Shown: positions 16,202 to 61,926 of the stretch, piece after piece | Numbering within the stretch: position 1 is the stretch's first letter | Layout of the letters: every line of letters begins with the position of its first letter | Assembly: GCF_900129025.1 (NCBI RefSeq) | Contig: NZ_FQUM01000012.1 | Span: 1-64,000 of the forward strand | Origin: Mariniphaga anaerophila | GTDB lineage: Bacteria; Bacteroidota; Bacteroidia; Bacteroidales; Prolixibacteraceae | Reading direction: 5' to 3' | Length of the DNA stretch: 64,000 bases | The notes under the pieces: model-generated | What the model saw: only the letters and a program-made list of their open reading frames with translations | Databases searched by the model: none | What the model was told of the DNA's origin: nothing | Program-made: the position numbers and the translations under genes

Positions 16202-17161
16202 ATGAGAATCAGATTTTTCATAATCATTTTTTTTGTAGTACTCGTAACCGGATGCAGACCGAAAAAAAATGCCGGAAGTGCTGCTTCGTATACGATTGCT
16301 ACGCTCAGAGGGCCTTCATCGATGGGAATGATACAGCTTATTGACAGCTTGAAAAATGCAGAAAATACGGACTTCCGGGTTGAATTTCTGAACGAACCGA
16401 TACAGGTGCGGAAGATGATGCTCGACGGATCGGCAGATTTTGCCATTCTGCCGACAACCATGGCTGCAATATTATATAATAAAGGATTGGATTACCGTTT
16501 GATTGCCGTTCCGGTTTGGGGCACGCTTTATTTGTTTGGCGAGGACACAACCATTACCGGTTGGAGCAACCTTCTGCACAAACGTGTAAATGTGATGGAA
16601 AAGGGAATGACTCCGGATGTGCTTTTTCGTTATCTGTTGCAAAAGCACGGCATCAATCCGGACAAAGACGTTGTGCTCGATTACAGTTTTCCTACTCACA
16701 TTGATTTGGCAAACGCCGTTGCTGCGGGGCAGGCAAAATTGGGAGTTATTTCGGAACCGTTGGTCAGCCTGGTGATGCAACGAAATAAAAAGGTGCGTCC
16801 TATTTTCGATTTGAACAAGGAGTGGAACAACGTGCAGGGAACGCCCATTGCTCAAACTGCATTTTTGGGAAAAGGGAAACTGCTTCAGGAAAATCCCAAA
16901 ATGGCAGAACAGCTTATTGCTGCTTACGATAAATCAACCCGGTGGGTAAATCAGAATCCCGACAGTGCTGCTACACTTATTGTCAAATACGGTATTCTGC
17001 CTGACAAAAACGTTGCGTCGCAGTCAATTCCCCGGTCGAACCTTAATTTTGTGAGAGCGCGGGGAATTTCAGAGGAAATAGAAGAATACCTGAGCATTTT
17101 TTACAGTATGAACCCTGAAATTATTGGAGGCAAACTTCCTGATGAAAATTTCTATTACTAA
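16202..17161 (+). CDS. NMT1/SsuA-like ABC transporter substrate-binding lipoprotein
   Basis: The 319-residue protein has a lipoprotein signal (VVLVTGC, Cys18) and then a periplasmic-binding-protein fold of the SsuA/ThiY/NMT1 group. Visible pieces are TIATLRGPSSMGMIQLIDSL at the first lobe, SADFAILPTTMAA (about 78-90), and AVAAGQAKLGVISEPLVSLVM (about 172-192). This group binds sulfonates, nitrate, pyrimidine thiamin precursors or similar small ligands. The permease start lies 20 bases inside its 3' end, so the three ABC genes form one operon. The ligand is not readable. Confidence 0.88.
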   Translation: MRIRFFIIIFFVVLVTGCRPKKNAGSAASYTIATLRGPSSMGMIQLIDSLKNAENTDFRVEFLNEPIQVRKMMLDGSADFAILPTTMAAILYNKGLDYRLIAVPVWGTLYLFGEDTTITGWSNLLHKRVNVMEKGMTPDVLFRYLLQKHGINPDKDVVLDYSFPTHIDLANAVAAGQAKLGVISEPLVSLVMQRNKKVRPIFDLNKEWNNVQGTPIAQTAFLGKGKLLQENPKMAEQLIAAYDKSTRWVNQNPDSAATLIVKYGILPDKNVASQSIPRSNLNFVRARGISEEIEEYLSIFYSMNPEIIGGKLPDENFYY

Positions 17162-17897
17162 AAAGCAATACATAGGTTTTATTTCGGTGGCTGTAATGCT
17201 GGCAGTCTGGAAACTTCTGGCTTTGTATTTCGACTCAGATTTTATTGTGCCGCATCCGGAAGATACGTTTTTAACAGTTCTGAAACTGTTTGCCGATAGC
17301 AGTTTTGCGGCGGTTGTGGGTACTACTGTTTTGCGCGGGCTGATTGGTTTTGTCATTTCTTTTTTTCTGGGAGTAGGAATTGGCATTATGGCCGGAATCA
17401 GTCCCGGATTTAATGCGTTTATAAATCCGATGTTGGTTACTATCCGTTCCACGCCGGTAATTGCTCTTATTTTGCTGGCGCTTATCTGGTTCAGCCCCGA
17501 TGCTGTGCCCGTATTTATTGCCATGCTAACCATGTTTCCTTTTATTTGTACCAATGTGGTTGACGGGATAAAAAGTGTCGATTCTCAGTTAATTGAAATG
17601 GCCCGGTTTTACAAAACAGGAAAGCGCAGAATTGTTAGTGAAGTTTATCTTCCGGCCATTGTTCCTTTTATTATGAGCGGAGCATCCAGCGCCATGGGCA
17701 TAGGCTGGCGGGCAATAATCATTGGAGAAGTGCTGAGTCAGCCTCAATACGGAATTGGAACAAAAATGCAGTCGGCACAAACTTTTTTAAATGTTGATGC
17801 CGTAATCGCCTGGACGCTGATTGCGGTGCTGATTAGTTTTGTCTTTGAGAAGATTATTCGGTGGAGCGAGCAAAAGATCGTAAAATGGAAAGCATGA
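17142..17897 (+). CDS. ABC transporter permease, SsuC/TauC type
   Basis: The start at 17142 is chosen over the in-frame TTG at 17124 because GGAGG at 17126-17130 is 11 bases upstream. The 251-residue protein has about six membrane segments and the EAA-type loop of BPD permeases (EMARFYKTGKRRIVSEVYLPAIVPFI, about residues 150-175), which contacts the ATPase. It overlaps the binding-protein gene by 20 bases and its TGA overlaps the ATPase start in an ATGA. It forms the inner-membrane channel of the importer. Confidence 0.9.
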   Translation: MKISITKKQYIGFISVAVMLAVWKLLALYFDSDFIVPHPEDTFLTVLKLFADSSFAAVVGTTVLRGLIGFVISFFLGVGIGIMAGISPGFNAFINPMLVTIRSTPVIALILLALIWFSPDAVPVFIAMLTMFPFICTNVVDGIKSVDSQLIEMARFYKTGKRRIVSEVYLPAIVPFIMSGASSAMGIGWRAIIIGEVLSQPQYGIGTKMQSAQTFLNVDAVIAWTLIAVLISFVFEKIIRWSEQKIVKWKA

Positions 17898-58104: not shown

Positions 58105-59457
58105 ATGCGCGACATAAATAAAAACCTCACTGAAGGACCCACCGGAAAACAATTGGTGCAACTTACCTGGCCTATGTTGTTGGGGCTGACAGGAATGGTT
58201 GTTTTCAATCTGGTGGACACCTATTTTATCGGGAAGCTTGGCGTTCAGCAGTTGGCTGCCATGGGATTTTGCTTCCCGGTTGTGATGTTTGTAAATAGTC
58301 TGTCGCACGGTGTGGGAATCGGCACTTCTTCGCTGGTGTCGCGCAATATTGTAAGTACGCATCGTAACACGGTAAAGCTGATGGCAAGCCGGGCTGTTTT
58401 GCTGGGGATTATCATTGTGGCGATTTTTGTGGTTGCAGGACTTCTTACCATTCGTCCGCTTTTTATTGCGCTGGGCGCCGGTCCCGAAATACTGGGGCAC
58501 ATTAACGATTACATGAGTGTTTGGTATTACGGCGTTGCCTTTGTTGTGGTTCCGATGATTGGAAATAACATTGTGCGGGCAACCGGCGATACATTTACAC
58601 CGGGAATGTTGATGGTTATTTCTGCAATTATCAATGCGATTCTCGATCCGCTTTTGATATTCGGAATTGGCCCGTTTCCCGAAATGGGCATGAAAGGAGC
58701 AGCGTTGGCTACTGTAATTTCAAGAAGTTCCGGGTTGGTTTTTATCCTCATTGTTCTCATTCGCCGTGAAAAGCTGCTTTCGTTGCACTTGGGACGCTTT
58801 CAGGAGATTATGAAAACCTGGCGGGATGTGCTTTCCATTGCAGGCCCTGCAAGTCTGGCACTTTTAATTACTCCTGTTTCTATTGGTTTGATTACGCGAA
58901 TTATTTCGGGGTTTGGAAAGGAAGCTGTGGCGGCATTCGGTGTGGCTTCGCGCATCGAAACATTTGCCCTGATGATGATATCTGCCCTGGGCTCGGTTCT
59001 GATTATTTTTATGGGACAGAACATCAGCCAGAAAAAGTTCCCCCGTATTTTTCAGGCGTTGAAATATGCGGGCTATTTTTCGCTGGTGTGGGGAGGAGCA
59101 ATTTTTGTTTTGCTGGTATTTTTTGCCGAACCGGTTTCTGCGCTTTTTTCAGACCACCAGGAAGTGGTAAATATTACCTCGCAATACCTGAAAACTGTAG
59201 GTATGAGCTACGGTTTTCAGGGATTGGTAATGGTAAGTATGTCGTGCTTCAACGGACTGAATAAACCGCTGCCATCCACTTTTTTTTCGGTGTTAAGAAT
59301 GCTTGCATTGTATGTGCCGCTTGCCTGGGTTGGAAGCCTTTATTTTGGCTTGCCCGGCGTTTTTTGGGCTGCATTGCTGGCCAATTTTGTTTCCGGAATT
59401 CTGGCCTTCCTGTTTCTAATCAGAACCGTCAGAAAGTTAAGGGAATCGGAAGTTTAA
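58105..59457 (+). CDS. MATE-family efflux transporter
   Basis: The start at 58105 gives MRDINKNLTEGPTGKQLVQLTWP, a typical MATE opening; the frame from 58072 adds 11 residues. The 450-residue inner-membrane protein has twelve predicted helices in two halves (for example PMLLGLTGMVVFNLVDTYFI and GPASLALLITPVSIGLI). It would export organic cations or drugs in exchange for H+ or Na+. The last two bases of its TAA (59456-59457) overlap the convergent corA gene stop. Confidence 0.92.
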   Translation: MRDINKNLTEGPTGKQLVQLTWPMLLGLTGMVVFNLVDTYFIGKLGVQQLAAMGFCFPVVMFVNSLSHGVGIGTSSLVSRNIVSTHRNTVKLMASRAVLLGIIIVAIFVVAGLLTIRPLFIALGAGPEILGHINDYMSVWYYGVAFVVVPMIGNNIVRATGDTFTPGMLMVISAIINAILDPLLIFGIGPFPEMGMKGAALATVISRSSGLVFILIVLIRREKLLSLHLGRFQEIMKTWRDVLSIAGPASLALLITPVSIGLITRIISGFGKEAVAAFGVASRIETFALMMISALGSVLIIFMGQNISQKKFPRIFQALKYAGYFSLVWGGAIFVLLVFFAEPVSALFSDHQEVVNITSQYLKTVGMSYGFQGLVMVSMSCFNGLNKPLPSTFFSVLRMLALYVPLAWVGSLYFGLPGVFWAALLANFVSGILAFLFLIRTVRKLRESEV

Positions 59458-60386
59458 AACCACTTTCTTCTTCGGAAAAGCAGAACTCCCAGGTACGACA
59501 TGAAACCGGAAAAGCCAATGATTGCCGGGAATGCCCAACTGTGTCCTTCGAGGTAGTTTGGCACATTCATTCCGTATAAACTGGCAATCAATGTTGGAAT
59601 CATCAAAATAATTGAAATGAGTGTAAGTTGCTTCATTACCACGTTCAGGTTGTTGGAAATTACCGAAGCAAAAGCATCCATCATTCCGCTTTGAATATCC
59701 GAATATATTTGAGCCATATCCAGCGCCTGTTTGTTTTCGATGATTGCATCTTCCAGCAAATCCTCGTTTATTTCGCTGATGTTGTTTTTTCTCGAACTCC
59801 TGAGTTTGGCCAGAATCAGTTCGTTTGCCTTTAAGGAAGTAATAAAGAAAACCAGGCATTTTTCCATTTTCAGGAGTTTGTTCAGCTCCTTGTTCCGGAT
59901 AGATTTTTCCAGGTCTTGTTCGATATTTGCGGTTTGCTGGTTAATCTGTTTCAGGTAATGCAGGTACGTTGTTGCCGAACGTAAAAAAAGTTTCAGAATG
60001 AAATTGAGTTCATCGGAAATTGGTTGTTTCATGTCGCGGTAAACCGATGGCTGCTCAAATGGCAAAACGTCGTTTAAAAGGGAACAAATGGTAATGGTGT
60101 AATTGTGGGCCAGGAAAATTCCGAGCGGAACCGTAAAATAAGGAACTCCGTTGTCGGGACTGCTGACCGGGATGCGTAAAATTACCAGTTGCCATTCGTC
60201 GTCAAATTCCACACGCGGACGCTCATCGGCATCGAGGATGTCCTGAACAATGTCGGCAGGAATATTGAACTCATTTGTTAAACGATTGATTTCTGTTGGG
60301 GTTGGCGTTGAAACATTTATCCAGCACCCTTTTTCAACATTTGGAATTTCGTTGTAACCCCCGAATGTTTTAAAAATTTTCAGCAT
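59454..60386 (-). CDS. corA: CorA-family metal ion transporter
   Basis: The 310-residue protein has a cytoplasmic alpha/beta domain, a long stalk helix with coiled-coil character, and two C-terminal membrane helices. The CorA signature YGMN is at about 271-274 (SLYGMNVPNYLEG), and the end is RRRKWF. It forms a pentameric Mg2+ (or Co2+/Ni2+) channel. GGAGG (plus 60393-60397) lies 6 bases before the ATG. Upstream is a leader with a small coupled reading frame, described separately. It is convergent with the MATE gene; their TAA stops overlap. Confidence 0.92.
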   Translation of the reverse strand: MLKIFKTFGGYNEIPNVEKGCWINVSTPTPTEINRLTNEFNIPADIVQDILDADERPRVEFDDEWQLVILRIPVSSPDNGVPYFTVPLGIFLAHNYTITICSLLNDVLPFEQPSVYRDMKQPISDELNFILKLFLRSATTYLHYLKQINQQTANIEQDLEKSIRNKELNKLLKMEKCLVFFITSLKANELILAKLRSSRKNNISEINEDLLEDAIIENKQALDMAQIYSDIQSGMMDAFASVISNNLNVVMKQLTLISIILMIPTLIASLYGMNVPNYLEGHSWAFPAIIGFSGFMSYLGVLLFRRRKWF

Positions 60387-60397
60387 GGTTTGCCTCC

Positions 60398-60424
60398 TTA
60401 TGCTTTATGCTCGCGCGGAGGCAT
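60398..60424 (-). CDS. corA leader peptide MPPREHKA
   Basis: An 8-codon frame with a perfect AAGGAGGG 6 bases before its ATG, ending TAA immediately ahead of the corA Shine-Dalgarno (11 bases from stop to corA ATG). Codons 2-3 (CCT CCG) contain the CCTCC that can hide either Shine-Dalgarno. The Pro-Pro-Arg-Glu content resembles ribosome-destabilising leader peptides of other Mg2+ transporter genes (inference). Translation is supported by the start signal only. Confidence 0.6.
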   Translation of the reverse strand: MPPREHKA

Positions 60425-60436
60425 TGTCGGCCCTCC

Positions 60437-60487
60437 TTACAAGCAGGTTAATACTTCTCTCTGTCTATGACACGGGCCATCGTCCAT
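60437..60487 (-). CDS. Possible second corA leader peptide (MDDGPCHRQREVLTCL)
   Basis: A 16-codon frame ending TAA directly before the SD1 of MPPREHKA. It starts 18 bases after the presumed transcription start and has only a weak purine tract (AAAGAAAAAATC). A nested alternative frame, MARVIDREKY, occupies 60448-60480. One of these may be translated; neither is secure. Confidence 0.3.
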   Translation of the reverse strand: MDDGPCHRQREVLTCL

Positions 60488-60520
60488 GATTTTTTCTTTA
60501 AAATTTGTGGTGCAAAAGTA

Positions 60521-60879
60521 TTCGTTTTTTCAATAAAGAAGGCACAAATGAGCGCCATTCTTCCTTTTTGGGTTTTTTGGTAACTAATACGTAACCAAGC
60601 GTAATTTTTAATCCGGTCCGGTTTTTAGATAGACTGTCTTAATTTGTGTGAATTAAAACGTTTCGTCTTTAATTTGCTGAAAATAAGTTTTATAATCCGT
60701 TTTATCCGGCTTTGTTTGATGTTTTGAACACTGAAGAATCAGGGAAGTCAACCTGTCATCATCGCCACACTGGACATCGTCAGTAATTTTGATTTTGAAA
60801 TACAGAGATAGTGTATTTTAAACGGGATTGAATTCCGGAATTTTTTGCCACATTTGCATCTTCGGAATTGAAATTAGAC
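60521..60879. other. Intergenic region upstream of the corA leader and the M20 peptidase gene
   Basis: No gene, tRNA or clear promoter was seen. The part near 60840-60879 is A/T-rich and may hold the M20 gene promoter, but no exact TAnnTTTG is present. Confidence 0.4.
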
Positions 60880-61926
60880 ATGGATAAATTTATTGATTTA
60901 CTAAAACGGTTGATTTCGACTCCCTCATTCAGCAAAGAAGAAGAAAGAGCTGCTGCTATTATGAGGGAATTTTTGCAGGATGCAGATATCCCTTATAAAG
61001 TTAAAAAGAATAATACCTGGGCATACAACAAGCATTTTGTCAAGGGGAAACCGGTTTTGTTGCTAAACTCGCATATCGACACGGTGCGGCCGGCAAAAGG
61101 TTATTCATTCGACCCGTTTTCGCCTGTTGAAGACGACGATAAACTTTACGGGTTGGGAAGTAATGATGCAGGCGGTCCGTTAGTGGCACTGCTGGCTGTT
61201 TTTATGCATTTTTACGAACGCGATGACCTGCCTTTTAATTTGATTTATGCCGCTACTGCCGAGGAGGAAATATCCGGAAAGCAGGGGCTGGAAATTGTGT
61301 TGCCCGAGATTGTGCCTGTTGCATTTGCTATTGTAGGCGAGCCAACAAGCATGGAGCTGGCCATTGCCGAAAAAGGCCTTTTGGTACTCGATTGTTACGC
61401 CCATGGAAAATCGGGGCACGCAGCGCGCAACGAAGGGGAAAATGCACTATATAAAGCTATCGATGATATTCAGATTCTTCGGAATTATCAATTTGAAAAT
61501 GCTTCGGAATTATTAGGTGAGGTGAAAGTTACGGTTACCCAGATTGAAGCTGGAACGCAGCACAACGTGGTTCCGGATGTTTGCCATTTTGTGGTGGATG
61601 TGCGTACAAATGAGCACTACCCCAATAAAGAAGCAGCAAAAATTATTTCGGGGCTGATTCAGTCTGAGGTGAAACCCCGTTCATTTCGGCTAAATTCTTC
61701 CGGAATTAGTGTCGACCATCCGTTTGCCCGAAAAGCAGCGGAGATGGGAATCCGGTTATACGGTTCGCCTACCACGTCTGACCAGGCCATTGTTCCTTTC
61801 CCTTCAGTAAAAATGGGCCCGGGCGATTCGGCGCGTTCACATTCTGCCGACGAGTATATTTACAAAAGCGAAATTATTGCAGGAGTTGAGCAGTACATAA
61901 AAATGCTTGAAGGACTGAAAATTTGA
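60880..61926 (+). CDS. M20-family deacylase (ArgE/DapE-like)
   Basis: The ATG at 60880 is used instead of the TTG at 60868. The 348-residue protein has the M20 metal and catalytic motifs: LLNSHIDTVRPA (metal His and Asp, about 70-81), GSNDAGG, AATAEEEISG (Glu base and metal Glu) and HGKSGHAARNEGENA for the dimer domain. The end is MGPGDSARSHSADEY with the last metal His. It removes acyl groups from amino acids (N-acetylornithine/N-acetylcitrulline or succinyl-diaminopimelate). Bacteroidota ArgE-type enzymes are the closest in length; no other arginine gene is nearby, so the substrate is open. Confidence 0.88.
   Translation: MDKFIDLLKRLISTPSFSKEEERAAAIMREFLQDADIPYKVKKNNTWAYNKHFVKGKPVLLLNSHIDTVRPAKGYSFDPFSPVEDDDKLYGLGSNDAGGPLVALLAVFMHFYERDDLPFNLIYAATAEEEISGKQGLEIVLPEIVPVAFAIVGEPTSMELAIAEKGLLVLDCYAHGKSGHAARNEGENALYKAIDDIQILRNYQFENASELLGEVKVTVTQIEAGTQHNVVPDVCHFVVDVRTNEHYPNKEAAKIISGLIQSEVKPRSFRLNSSGISVDHPFARKAAEMGIRLYGSPTTSDQAIVPFPSVKMGPGDSARSHSADEYIYKSEIIAGVEQYIKMLEGLKI

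Follow-up and report, generated by a model that had tools for sequence, protein, structure and literature searches.

A conserved leader peptide and a Shine-Dalgarno switch ahead of corA in Mariniphaga anaerophila and related Bacteroidota: probably a ribosome-based magnesium sensor

Introduction

To our knowledge, the sensing of Mg2+ by nascent acidic peptides is known only from enteric bacteria. A defining trait of such leaders (the mgtL and mgtQ kind) is ribosome loss on the leader frame that depends on Mg2+ and is counteracted by bL31. MgtL, encoded ahead of mgtA in E. coli and Salmonella, has an N-terminal acidic and proline motif (EPDP) before a Mg2+ transporter, as does the Bacteroidota leader described here, and ribosome drop-off at EPDP in low Mg2+ turns the gene on (PMC11282234, excerpted text). 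The output of mgtL is Rho-dependent transcription termination (same excerpts), whereas the Bacteroidota leader would mask a Shine-Dalgarno sequence (SD). The leader corL of Salmonella and E. coli is likewise an upstream open reading frame (uORF) of corA, with an inverse relation between its translation and corA, and E. coli corA is Mg2+-responsive through the corL region; corL differs in being Rho-dependent, in its UUG start and in its structures, and the excerpts of that source do not speak of an M-[DE]-[DE]-x-P core (PMC11552253).

mgtQ of Salmonella, 8 codons in the mgtC-mgtB intergenic region, resembles the Bacteroidota leader as a short ORF with acidic codons 2 and 5 and Pro before a Mg2+ transporter gene, in alternative stem-loops that mask or free the downstream ribosome binding site (RBS) with translation as the output, and in the sign proposed here, poor uORF translation giving more transporter; its acidic codons (Asp2/Glu5) free the mgtB RBS (PMC8092293, excerpted text). 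It is a four-region switch inside an enteric operon with region 1 within the ORF (same excerpts), whereas the Bacteroidota element is the 5' leader of a first gene, with three arms, arm 1 at the leader stop and four transporter types behind it, in another phylum. No sequence relation between the two was seen in an informal comparison.

M-box riboswitches precede mgtE-nramp (NrmT) operons, a type that includes a Mg2+ transporter, in other bacteria, so that M-boxes and the Bacteroidota leader have the same targets, including an MgtE_N-like gene beside an Nramp-related gene (PMC4072509, in the portion consulted); the M-box is a metal-binding RNA aptamer, whereas the Bacteroidota leader has no credible Rfam match. 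Extended-SD autoregulation of rpsU in Bacteroidia shares the strong SD on a regulated gene where ribosomes otherwise fail to use SDs, but its sensor is the ribosome lacking bS21, with no leader peptide, and no Bacteroidales member passed the criteria of that study as given in the excerpted text (PMC9976891). The Bacteroidota element, an MDEGP leader or any corA leader of the phylum was undescribed in the open-access literature searched; subscription papers could hold one.

Materials and Methods

The window is the whole stretch of 64,000 nucleotides of Mariniphaga anaerophila DNA that was analysed. Relatives of its corA were collected by scanning genome contigs with the CorA protein, and the best 80 of 150 were kept; the upstream regions were unbiased because the scan used the protein alone. 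Locus L079 was excluded, since a contig end cuts its upstream DNA, and 79 readable loci remained. Leaders were called by the rule [M/L]-[DE]-[DEAS]-x-[P/S/L] at the equivalent position. Alignment A1 comprised 76 leaders and was scored for two mutually exclusive helices, with slid (1 to 3 columns) and shuffled (500) controls.

Covariance model R1, built from corA leaders alone, was searched against 149 genomes of the order to which the window belongs. R2 was a wider model with mgtE and MgtE_N leaders added, run on 393 genomes of the order at E ≤ 0.05. Accessibility of the SD was obtained by partition-function folding at equilibrium, with a blocked ribosome footprint assumed at -12/+15 around the P site.

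Results

Layout of the corA leader

The initial annotation had placed two SD-like sequences (SD1 and SD2), the short frame MPPREHKA between them and corA on the minus strand, and all were read at the positions claimed (Table 1). The identity of corA was borne out by Pfam; the protein scored 123 bits against NCBIfam TIGR00383, under the cut-off of 200.75. The start codon of corA occupies positions 60386-60384. Another ORF, MDDGPCHRQREVLTCL, starts 21 codons upstream of the MPPREHKA start, with its ATG at 60487, 33 nt past the start of a TAnnTTTG motif. Its stop codon (60439-60437, minus strand) is overlapped by SD1, the TAA sitting within TGTAAGGAGGG. Two pairings are available in the window, GGAGG:CCTCC with SD1 against GGAGGCA:TGCCTCC with SD2; by eye, helix 1:2 consists of GGAGG:CCTCC plus GCTTG:CGAGC. 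Separately, GGCCC (60474-60478, leader codons 4-5) could pair with GGGCC (60429-60433, arm 1 end), a pairing that may compete with the others as an additional helix and may account for the preference of corA leaders for GGC-CCG at these codons.

Table 1. Features of the corA leader region in the window
Feature	Position	Strand	Basis or remark
corA, 310 aa, presumed regulated gene	59454-60386	-	Pfam PF01544, E 3.2e-51
-7 promoter motif TAnnTTTG, presumed Bacteroidota type, TACTTTTG	60513-60520	-	sequence
Conserved leader ORF MDDGPCHRQREVLTCL plus stop, 16 codons	60437-60487	-	TAA overlaps arm 1
SD1 AAGGAGGG	60438-60431	-	read directly
Arm 1 (GCTTG TAA GGAGG), SD1 of the initial annotation; partner of arm 2	60432-60444	-	helix 1:2 covariation
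Arm 2 (TGCCTCC GCG CGAGC), anti-SD common to both alternative helices	60409-60423	-	covariation of both helices
CCTCC within arm 2	60421-60417	-	read directly
Arm 3, corA SD AAGGAGGCA, SD2 of the initial annotation	60391-60399	-	helix 2:3 covariation
SD2 core AAGGAGG	60399-60393	-	read directly
MPPREHKA frame ATGCCTCCGCGCGAGCATAAAGCATAA	60398-60424	-	read directly; unconserved, judged fortuitous

The TAnnTTTG motif, of the Bacteroidota -7 promoter type, started 27-41 nt upstream of the leader ATG in 70 of the 75 corA leaders whose upstream DNA extended to 60 nt or more; each of six rearranged control motifs occurred 0-2 times within 70 nt of the leader ATG in the same 75. No GGAG, GAGG or AGGA lay within 20 nt upstream of the leader start codon in any of 76 leaders, and 70 of 76 had one within 20 nt before corA. 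Among window ORFs of at least 150 aa, 3 of 39, corA included, had one of these tetramers within 20 nt upstream (crude calls, first ATG taken as start). The only other long window ORF with GGAGG or AGGAG within 20 nt before its first ATG, also a crude start, lies at 17142-17897 on the plus strand. The rarity of strong SDs in the window fits the report that Bacteroidia ribosomes generally fail to use SDs (PMC9976891, excerpted text) and makes the SD of corA unusual. The same general failure counts against an SD switch, which would need a special route.

The Mariniphaga anaerophila genome has, besides the window corA, one distant CorA-like gene (21% identity; L082, G000:C34:26544-27428). A distant MgtE (29% identity) lies at G000:C40:7551-8861. 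Model R1 found no leader before either of these two genes and, across the genome, matched the window corA alone (next match E 5.96).

Conservation of the leader peptide

A leader was present at 75 of the 79 readable corA loci (among the best 80 of 150 relatives); 74 matched the rule, and L040 added one with MDEGLYHSKFTY. It was missing at 4 of the 79 (L002, where it is degenerate, L018, L034 and L080). The usual core was M-[D/E]-[D/E]-x-P in an ORF of 12-18 codons, most commonly opening with Met-Asp-Glu-Gly-Pro; short uORFs with acidic residues near the N-terminus were found before a Mg2+ transporter gene. Locus L002 (1850-2000), a 79% relative, kept the promoter motif and arm-like sequences with the acidic and Pro codons gone (MIRIIIISVI), as a natural sensor-less variant would.

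Codon usage in the 74 loci plus the window was GAC (67) and GAA (8) at codon 2; GAA (61), GAC (6), GAT (4), GCA (2) and TCA (2) at codon 3; and CCG (47), CCT (16), CCC (7), CCA (3) and TCG (2) at codon 5. Third positions accounted for 44 of the 52 changes in these three codons, against 8 at positions 1 and 2 together. Over 123 distinct leaders of all gene classes, comprising 72 from the corA set and 51 known from model matches alone, which favour the consensus, third positions had 115 changes against 7 and 10 at the other two (of 369 cells each), and the bias was present in both subsets (corA set, 44 vs 7; model-only, 71 vs 10). Both codons 2 and 3 were acidic in 114 of the 123, and codon 5 was Pro in 118. 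Because changes in codons 2, 3 and 5 concentrate at third positions, this comparison argues that the leader peptide is under selection.

Leader length (n = 76) was 12 codons in 35 (L040 included), 16 in 34 (window included), 15 in 4, 18 in 2 and 14 in 1. Most short leaders end at a conserved TATTAAC immediately ahead of arm 1, and long ones at a stop inside or at arm 1. On a quick CorA tree, the 12-codon and longer forms interchanged 12 times or more, yet the stop of every one of the 76 ORFs is codon 13-19 and lies just ahead of or within arm 1, never beyond it; the constancy of the stop despite the changes of form suggests that its position matters.

MPPREHKA, which had been proposed as the leader and sensor peptide, was not conserved among relatives. 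An ATG between the true leader stop and the SD was present in 24 of 76 leaders (75 loci plus the window) and a closed frame, with an in-frame stop before corA or overlapping its ATG, in 12 of 76, window included; the peptides of these downstream frames were unrelated (MSSCR, MCFL, MYPLQ, MFSYRTKM and others). MPPREHKA was rejected as a sensor because the frame is absent or different in relatives and its peptide is unshared. The ATG of the frame follows from the base pairing of arm 2, whose first bases, UGCCUCC, are complementary to GGAGGCA of the SD: the UG of the start is the arm 2 end that pairs with the CA beside the SD. The frame was judged fortuitous. The proposal of a leader peptide ahead of corA holds, with the wrong peptide chosen; the conserved one is MDDGPCHRQREVLTCL.

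Three distant corA loci from another family of the class (47-49% identical; L234, L235 and L236) have the leaders MDDYYYSLVLN, MDDSQRKYY and MDDYYSEMLN, with the TAnnTTTG motif upstream and, by eye, hairpin-like sequence downstream, without a strong SD; perhaps the same peptide sensor has a different output there. The other seven distant corA loci of that search (L233, L237-L242) had no such leader.

Covariation of the three arms

Helix 1:2 was paired in 86.1% of the cells of A1 against 43-55% in slid controls, with two-sided changes in 80 cells against 28.8 in shuffled alignments (reached in 0 of 500 shuffles) and in 11 of its 12 pairs (9 of 500 shuffles as high). Helix 2:3, in which arm 3 contains the SD, was paired in 78.4% of cells against 45-51% when slid. 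Its two-sided changes numbered 51 cells against 27.5 shuffled (0 of 500 as high), although its number of two-sided pairs was reached by 26 of 500 shuffles and its number of pair types by 31 of 500, and two-sided cells were more numerous (64) in one slid version, in which pairing was only 51%. Evidence for helix 2:3 is weaker than for helix 1:2. RNAalifold picked helix 1:2 plus just two pairs in the ORF region, and two divergent loci retain helix 1:2 in other letters (L003, ATTAAGAGGGGCG:TGCCTTTCTTAAT; L013, CTTAATAAGA:TCTTATTAAG).

Alternative RNA structures that adjoin or overlap the uORF and may control the downstream gene are present, and an anti-SD arm is common to the two exclusive helices, one of which masks the SD. 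The mutually exclusive hairpins with a common CCUCC-type arm and SD masking before corA, as initially annotated, are supported by covariation of both helices in relatives. Conservation in relatives, which had been suggested as a check, extends to all three arms with compensatory changes, but not to the MPPREHKA frame.

Rfam gave four sub-gathering matches in window positions 60250-60900 (best E 0.77, none an M-box) and no gathering-level match in five relatives. Identity as an M-box riboswitch was rejected, the Rfam covariance model being unmatched.

Predicted accessibility of the SD

Averaged over 76 leaders, predicted SD accessibility was 0.12 for the free RNA, 0.08 when a ribosome occupied the leader stop and 0.22 when it occupied codon 5, against 0.43, 0.47 and 0.43 in shuffled controls; the window had 0.30, 0.29 and 0.73, respectively. 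Of the 76 leaders, 69 were predicted less open in the stop state than in the codon-5 state, 34 of them by a margin above 0.1, and none was more open in the stop state by such a margin. The modelled differences are modest in size. In the R2 set (L224-L228 left out of 68), the codon-5 state was more open in 60 of 63; mainly these pooled figures are used, because the gene-class labels of the set came from a crude motif and differ from the gene assignments. The group so labelled MgtE_N (15 leaders) was no more open at codon 5 than shuffled sequences (0.32 vs 0.31). Many leaders were predicted closed in all states (e.g., L044, L054 and L057); if the model is right, co-transcriptional folding must matter for these.

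Genes behind the leader

Model R1 gave 19 matches at E ≤ 0.1 in the 149 order genomes, of which all 17 at E ≤ 0.031 stood before Mg2+ transporter genes: 7 corA (tblastn), 6 mgtE (PF01769 + PF03448 + CBS) and 4 PRC-MgtE_N-CBS genes. Ten of the 17 were not corA and 13 lay outside the training set, 4 of the 7 corA being training sequences. The next gene in all 4 MgtE_N loci was an Nramp relative (two by PF01566, two by eye). The last two matches (E 0.092 and 0.097) look like chance and were set aside.

Model R2 gave 68 matches in 67 of the 393 order genomes, and 65 preceded one of four Mg2+ transporter types, 26 of these 65 having their leader ORF in a training alignment (21 in that of R2 itself). 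The 65 comprised 21 CorA, 19 MgtE, 23 MgtE_N and 2 MgtA/MgtB-type P-ATPases, the latter with more than 1200 bits each against TIGR01524 and both outside the R1 and R2 training alignments. One of the CorA cases (L224) was named from its translation by eye, with the corA ATG 258 nt past the leader ATG, and one of the MgtE_N genes (L216) is cut after 25 codons. The three misses were two loci with frames open for at least 49 codons (L225 and L227) and one without a gene behind (L228). A single credited match occurred in 63 of 64 genomes and two (corA and MgtE_N) in 1 of 64, where few candidates were scored per genome and second copies may have been missed. The switch seems, from these sequences, to be kept while the transporter behind it changes.

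Genes sought by protein had the leader at 10 of 12 MgtE_N loci, 6 of which R1 had missed, and at 6 of 11 close MgtE loci; it was absent at 2 of 12 and 5 of 11, respectively, and at all 19 distant MgtE genes (about 26-32% identity; L124-L142). None of the three MgtA relatives at E ≤ 1e-150 in 80 order genomes (L230-L232) had a leader. Before the MgtE_N gene of L154, an ORF seen by eye, MDPYPSRISVFLKLIIRG, takes the place of MDEGP, with an acidic and Pro start of other make-up.

In a phylum-wide sample of 296 genomes, R1 matched the window's own genome and two weak sites (E 0.019 and 0.065), neither before a recognisable Mg2+ gene (ORFs by eye), and R2 matched the own genome and one weak site (L229, E 0.03); the latter lacks a leader beginning with ATG, and no long ORF has its start in the 160 nt or so that follow it. 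An exact pattern scan of 395 genomes of the class returned the window and three others (L106-L108, MEEDPFDSRISETIRIV and likes), which are alike past their stop, as the reverse strand of a common coding gene might be. The lack of further convincing matches in the phylum samples suggests that the cassette is concentrated in the window's order at the sensitivity used, strict filters losing weak matches. Carriers include Draconibacterium (Prolixibacteraceae), Ancylomarina (Marinifilaceae) and sequences labelled Yeosuana (placed in Flavobacteriaceae) and Mesonia.

Discussion

The conserved leader and the SD switch probably form a ribosome-based magnesium sensor. The specific reading favoured here, a Mg2+-responsive leader-peptide switch acting on translation initiation of corA, is given a probability of about 0.7. 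Judged from the promoter motif, the transcript would start about 20 nt before the SD-less ORF of 16 codons. In ample Mg2+, the ribosome would read M-D-D/E-G-P and onwards through to the leader stop, where it would cover arm 1 and leave arm 2 to pair with arm 3, hiding the SD of corA (OFF). In low Mg2+, the ribosome would be lost or paused at the acidic and Pro codons 2-5, and arm 1, left free, would pair with arm 2 and expose the SD (ON).

What the sequence comparison establishes is a peptide-coding leader that ends at arm 1, a pair of alternative helices, a strong SD and an association with genes of four unrelated Mg2+ transporter types. The sign of control is suggested by the position of the stop and by folding: the leader ends in or just before arm 1, so that a ribosome finishing it would occupy arm 1 and arm 2 could then sequester the SD; and since the stop state is predicted to be less open than the codon-5 state, corA should be off when the leader is read to its end and on when ribosomes are lost or pause early. 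Leader translation had initially been thought to free SD2; the direction is probably the opposite. Such control of an importer would make sense if ribosomes carrying acidic nascent chains become unstable in low Mg2+, as for MgtL and MgtQ. We infer Mg2+ as the signal, drop-off or pausing at Asp, Glu and Pro codons as the sensor step, and translation rather than transcription as the output. Against it, most leaders offer two acidic residues and one Pro only; di-acidic residues alone were insufficient in the excerpts of PMC11282234, and the conserved Pro of mgtQ acted via RNA pairing in those of PMC8092293.

The leader might respond to another cue, such as charged tRNA (Pro, Gly, Asp/Glu), the state of EF-P or ABC-F, or a drug, with Mg2+ transport secondary. 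The single conserved Pro would suit this, and mgtM and mgtP sense ATP and charged tRNA-Pro by translation, MgtP of Salmonella responding to tRNA-Pro (PMC8092293, excerpted text); however, the core is di-acidic with one Pro and not a run of a single codon, and all 17 confident R1 matches precede Mg2+ transporter genes, which makes a different cue unlikely. Direct sensing of Mg2+ by a metal-binding, M-box-like RNA aptamer, with the short ORF incidental, is quite unlikely. The downstream genes are Mg2+ transporters, M-boxes occur before mgtE-nramp operons elsewhere (PMC4072509, portion consulted), and leader codons such as GGC-CCG are conserved as bases too in corA leaders, but Rfam gave no credible match, RNAalifold placed just two pairs in the ORF region beyond helix 1:2, codons 2, 3 and 5 vary mostly at third positions, and the ORF closes before or in arm 1 despite changing its form.

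Two further readings would have leader translation raise corA. In one, termination-reinitiation, a ribosome that has completed the leader would bind again, at arm 1 or at the SD, and start on corA. In its favour, arm 1 looks like an SD and overlaps the leader stop in many corA leaders (34 of 76 have TAA or TAG with G as the next base), but the stop lies 36-60 nt from the corA ATG, far for reinitiation, and the sequence of arm 1 changes among relatives without loss of pairing to arm 2; this reading is very unlikely. Dependence of corA on translation of the second frame, MPPREHKA, which would cover CCUCC and free SD2, is hardly credible: frame, CCUCC and SD overlap are all present in the window, but relatives mostly lack a closed frame and share no such peptide, and it is the upstream leader that is conserved.

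The Mg2+-responsive leader-peptide switch is in kind like mgtQ, through its proposed translational output, and like mgtL and corL as uORFs before Mg2+ transporters, all enteric, and is probably of independent origin. Neither its peptides (MDEGP.., where MgtL has EPDP) nor its architecture looks related to the mgtL and corL families. That the leader also occurs before MgtE, MgtE_N-Nramp and MgtA-type genes lends strong support to the initial suggestion that Bacteroidota have a Mg2+ leader resembling mgtL, and a breadth over four transporter types appears unusual. With somewhat less confidence than for the switch itself, the cassette is regarded as a new Bacteroidota class of ribosome-based Mg2+ sensor, in which one M-D-[D/E]-G-P and SD-masking unit is kept while CorA, MgtE, MgtE_N-Nramp and MgtA swap behind it, evolved apart from enteric mgtL, mgtQ and corL and employing a strong SD in a phylum that rarely uses one.

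The prediction is concrete, resting on three codons and two helices. If it is true, the ribosome's own dependence on Mg2+ would have been recruited as a sensor more than once, and the leader would point to the Mg2+ regulon of these Bacteroidota and give a reason for the strong SDs on a few of their genes.
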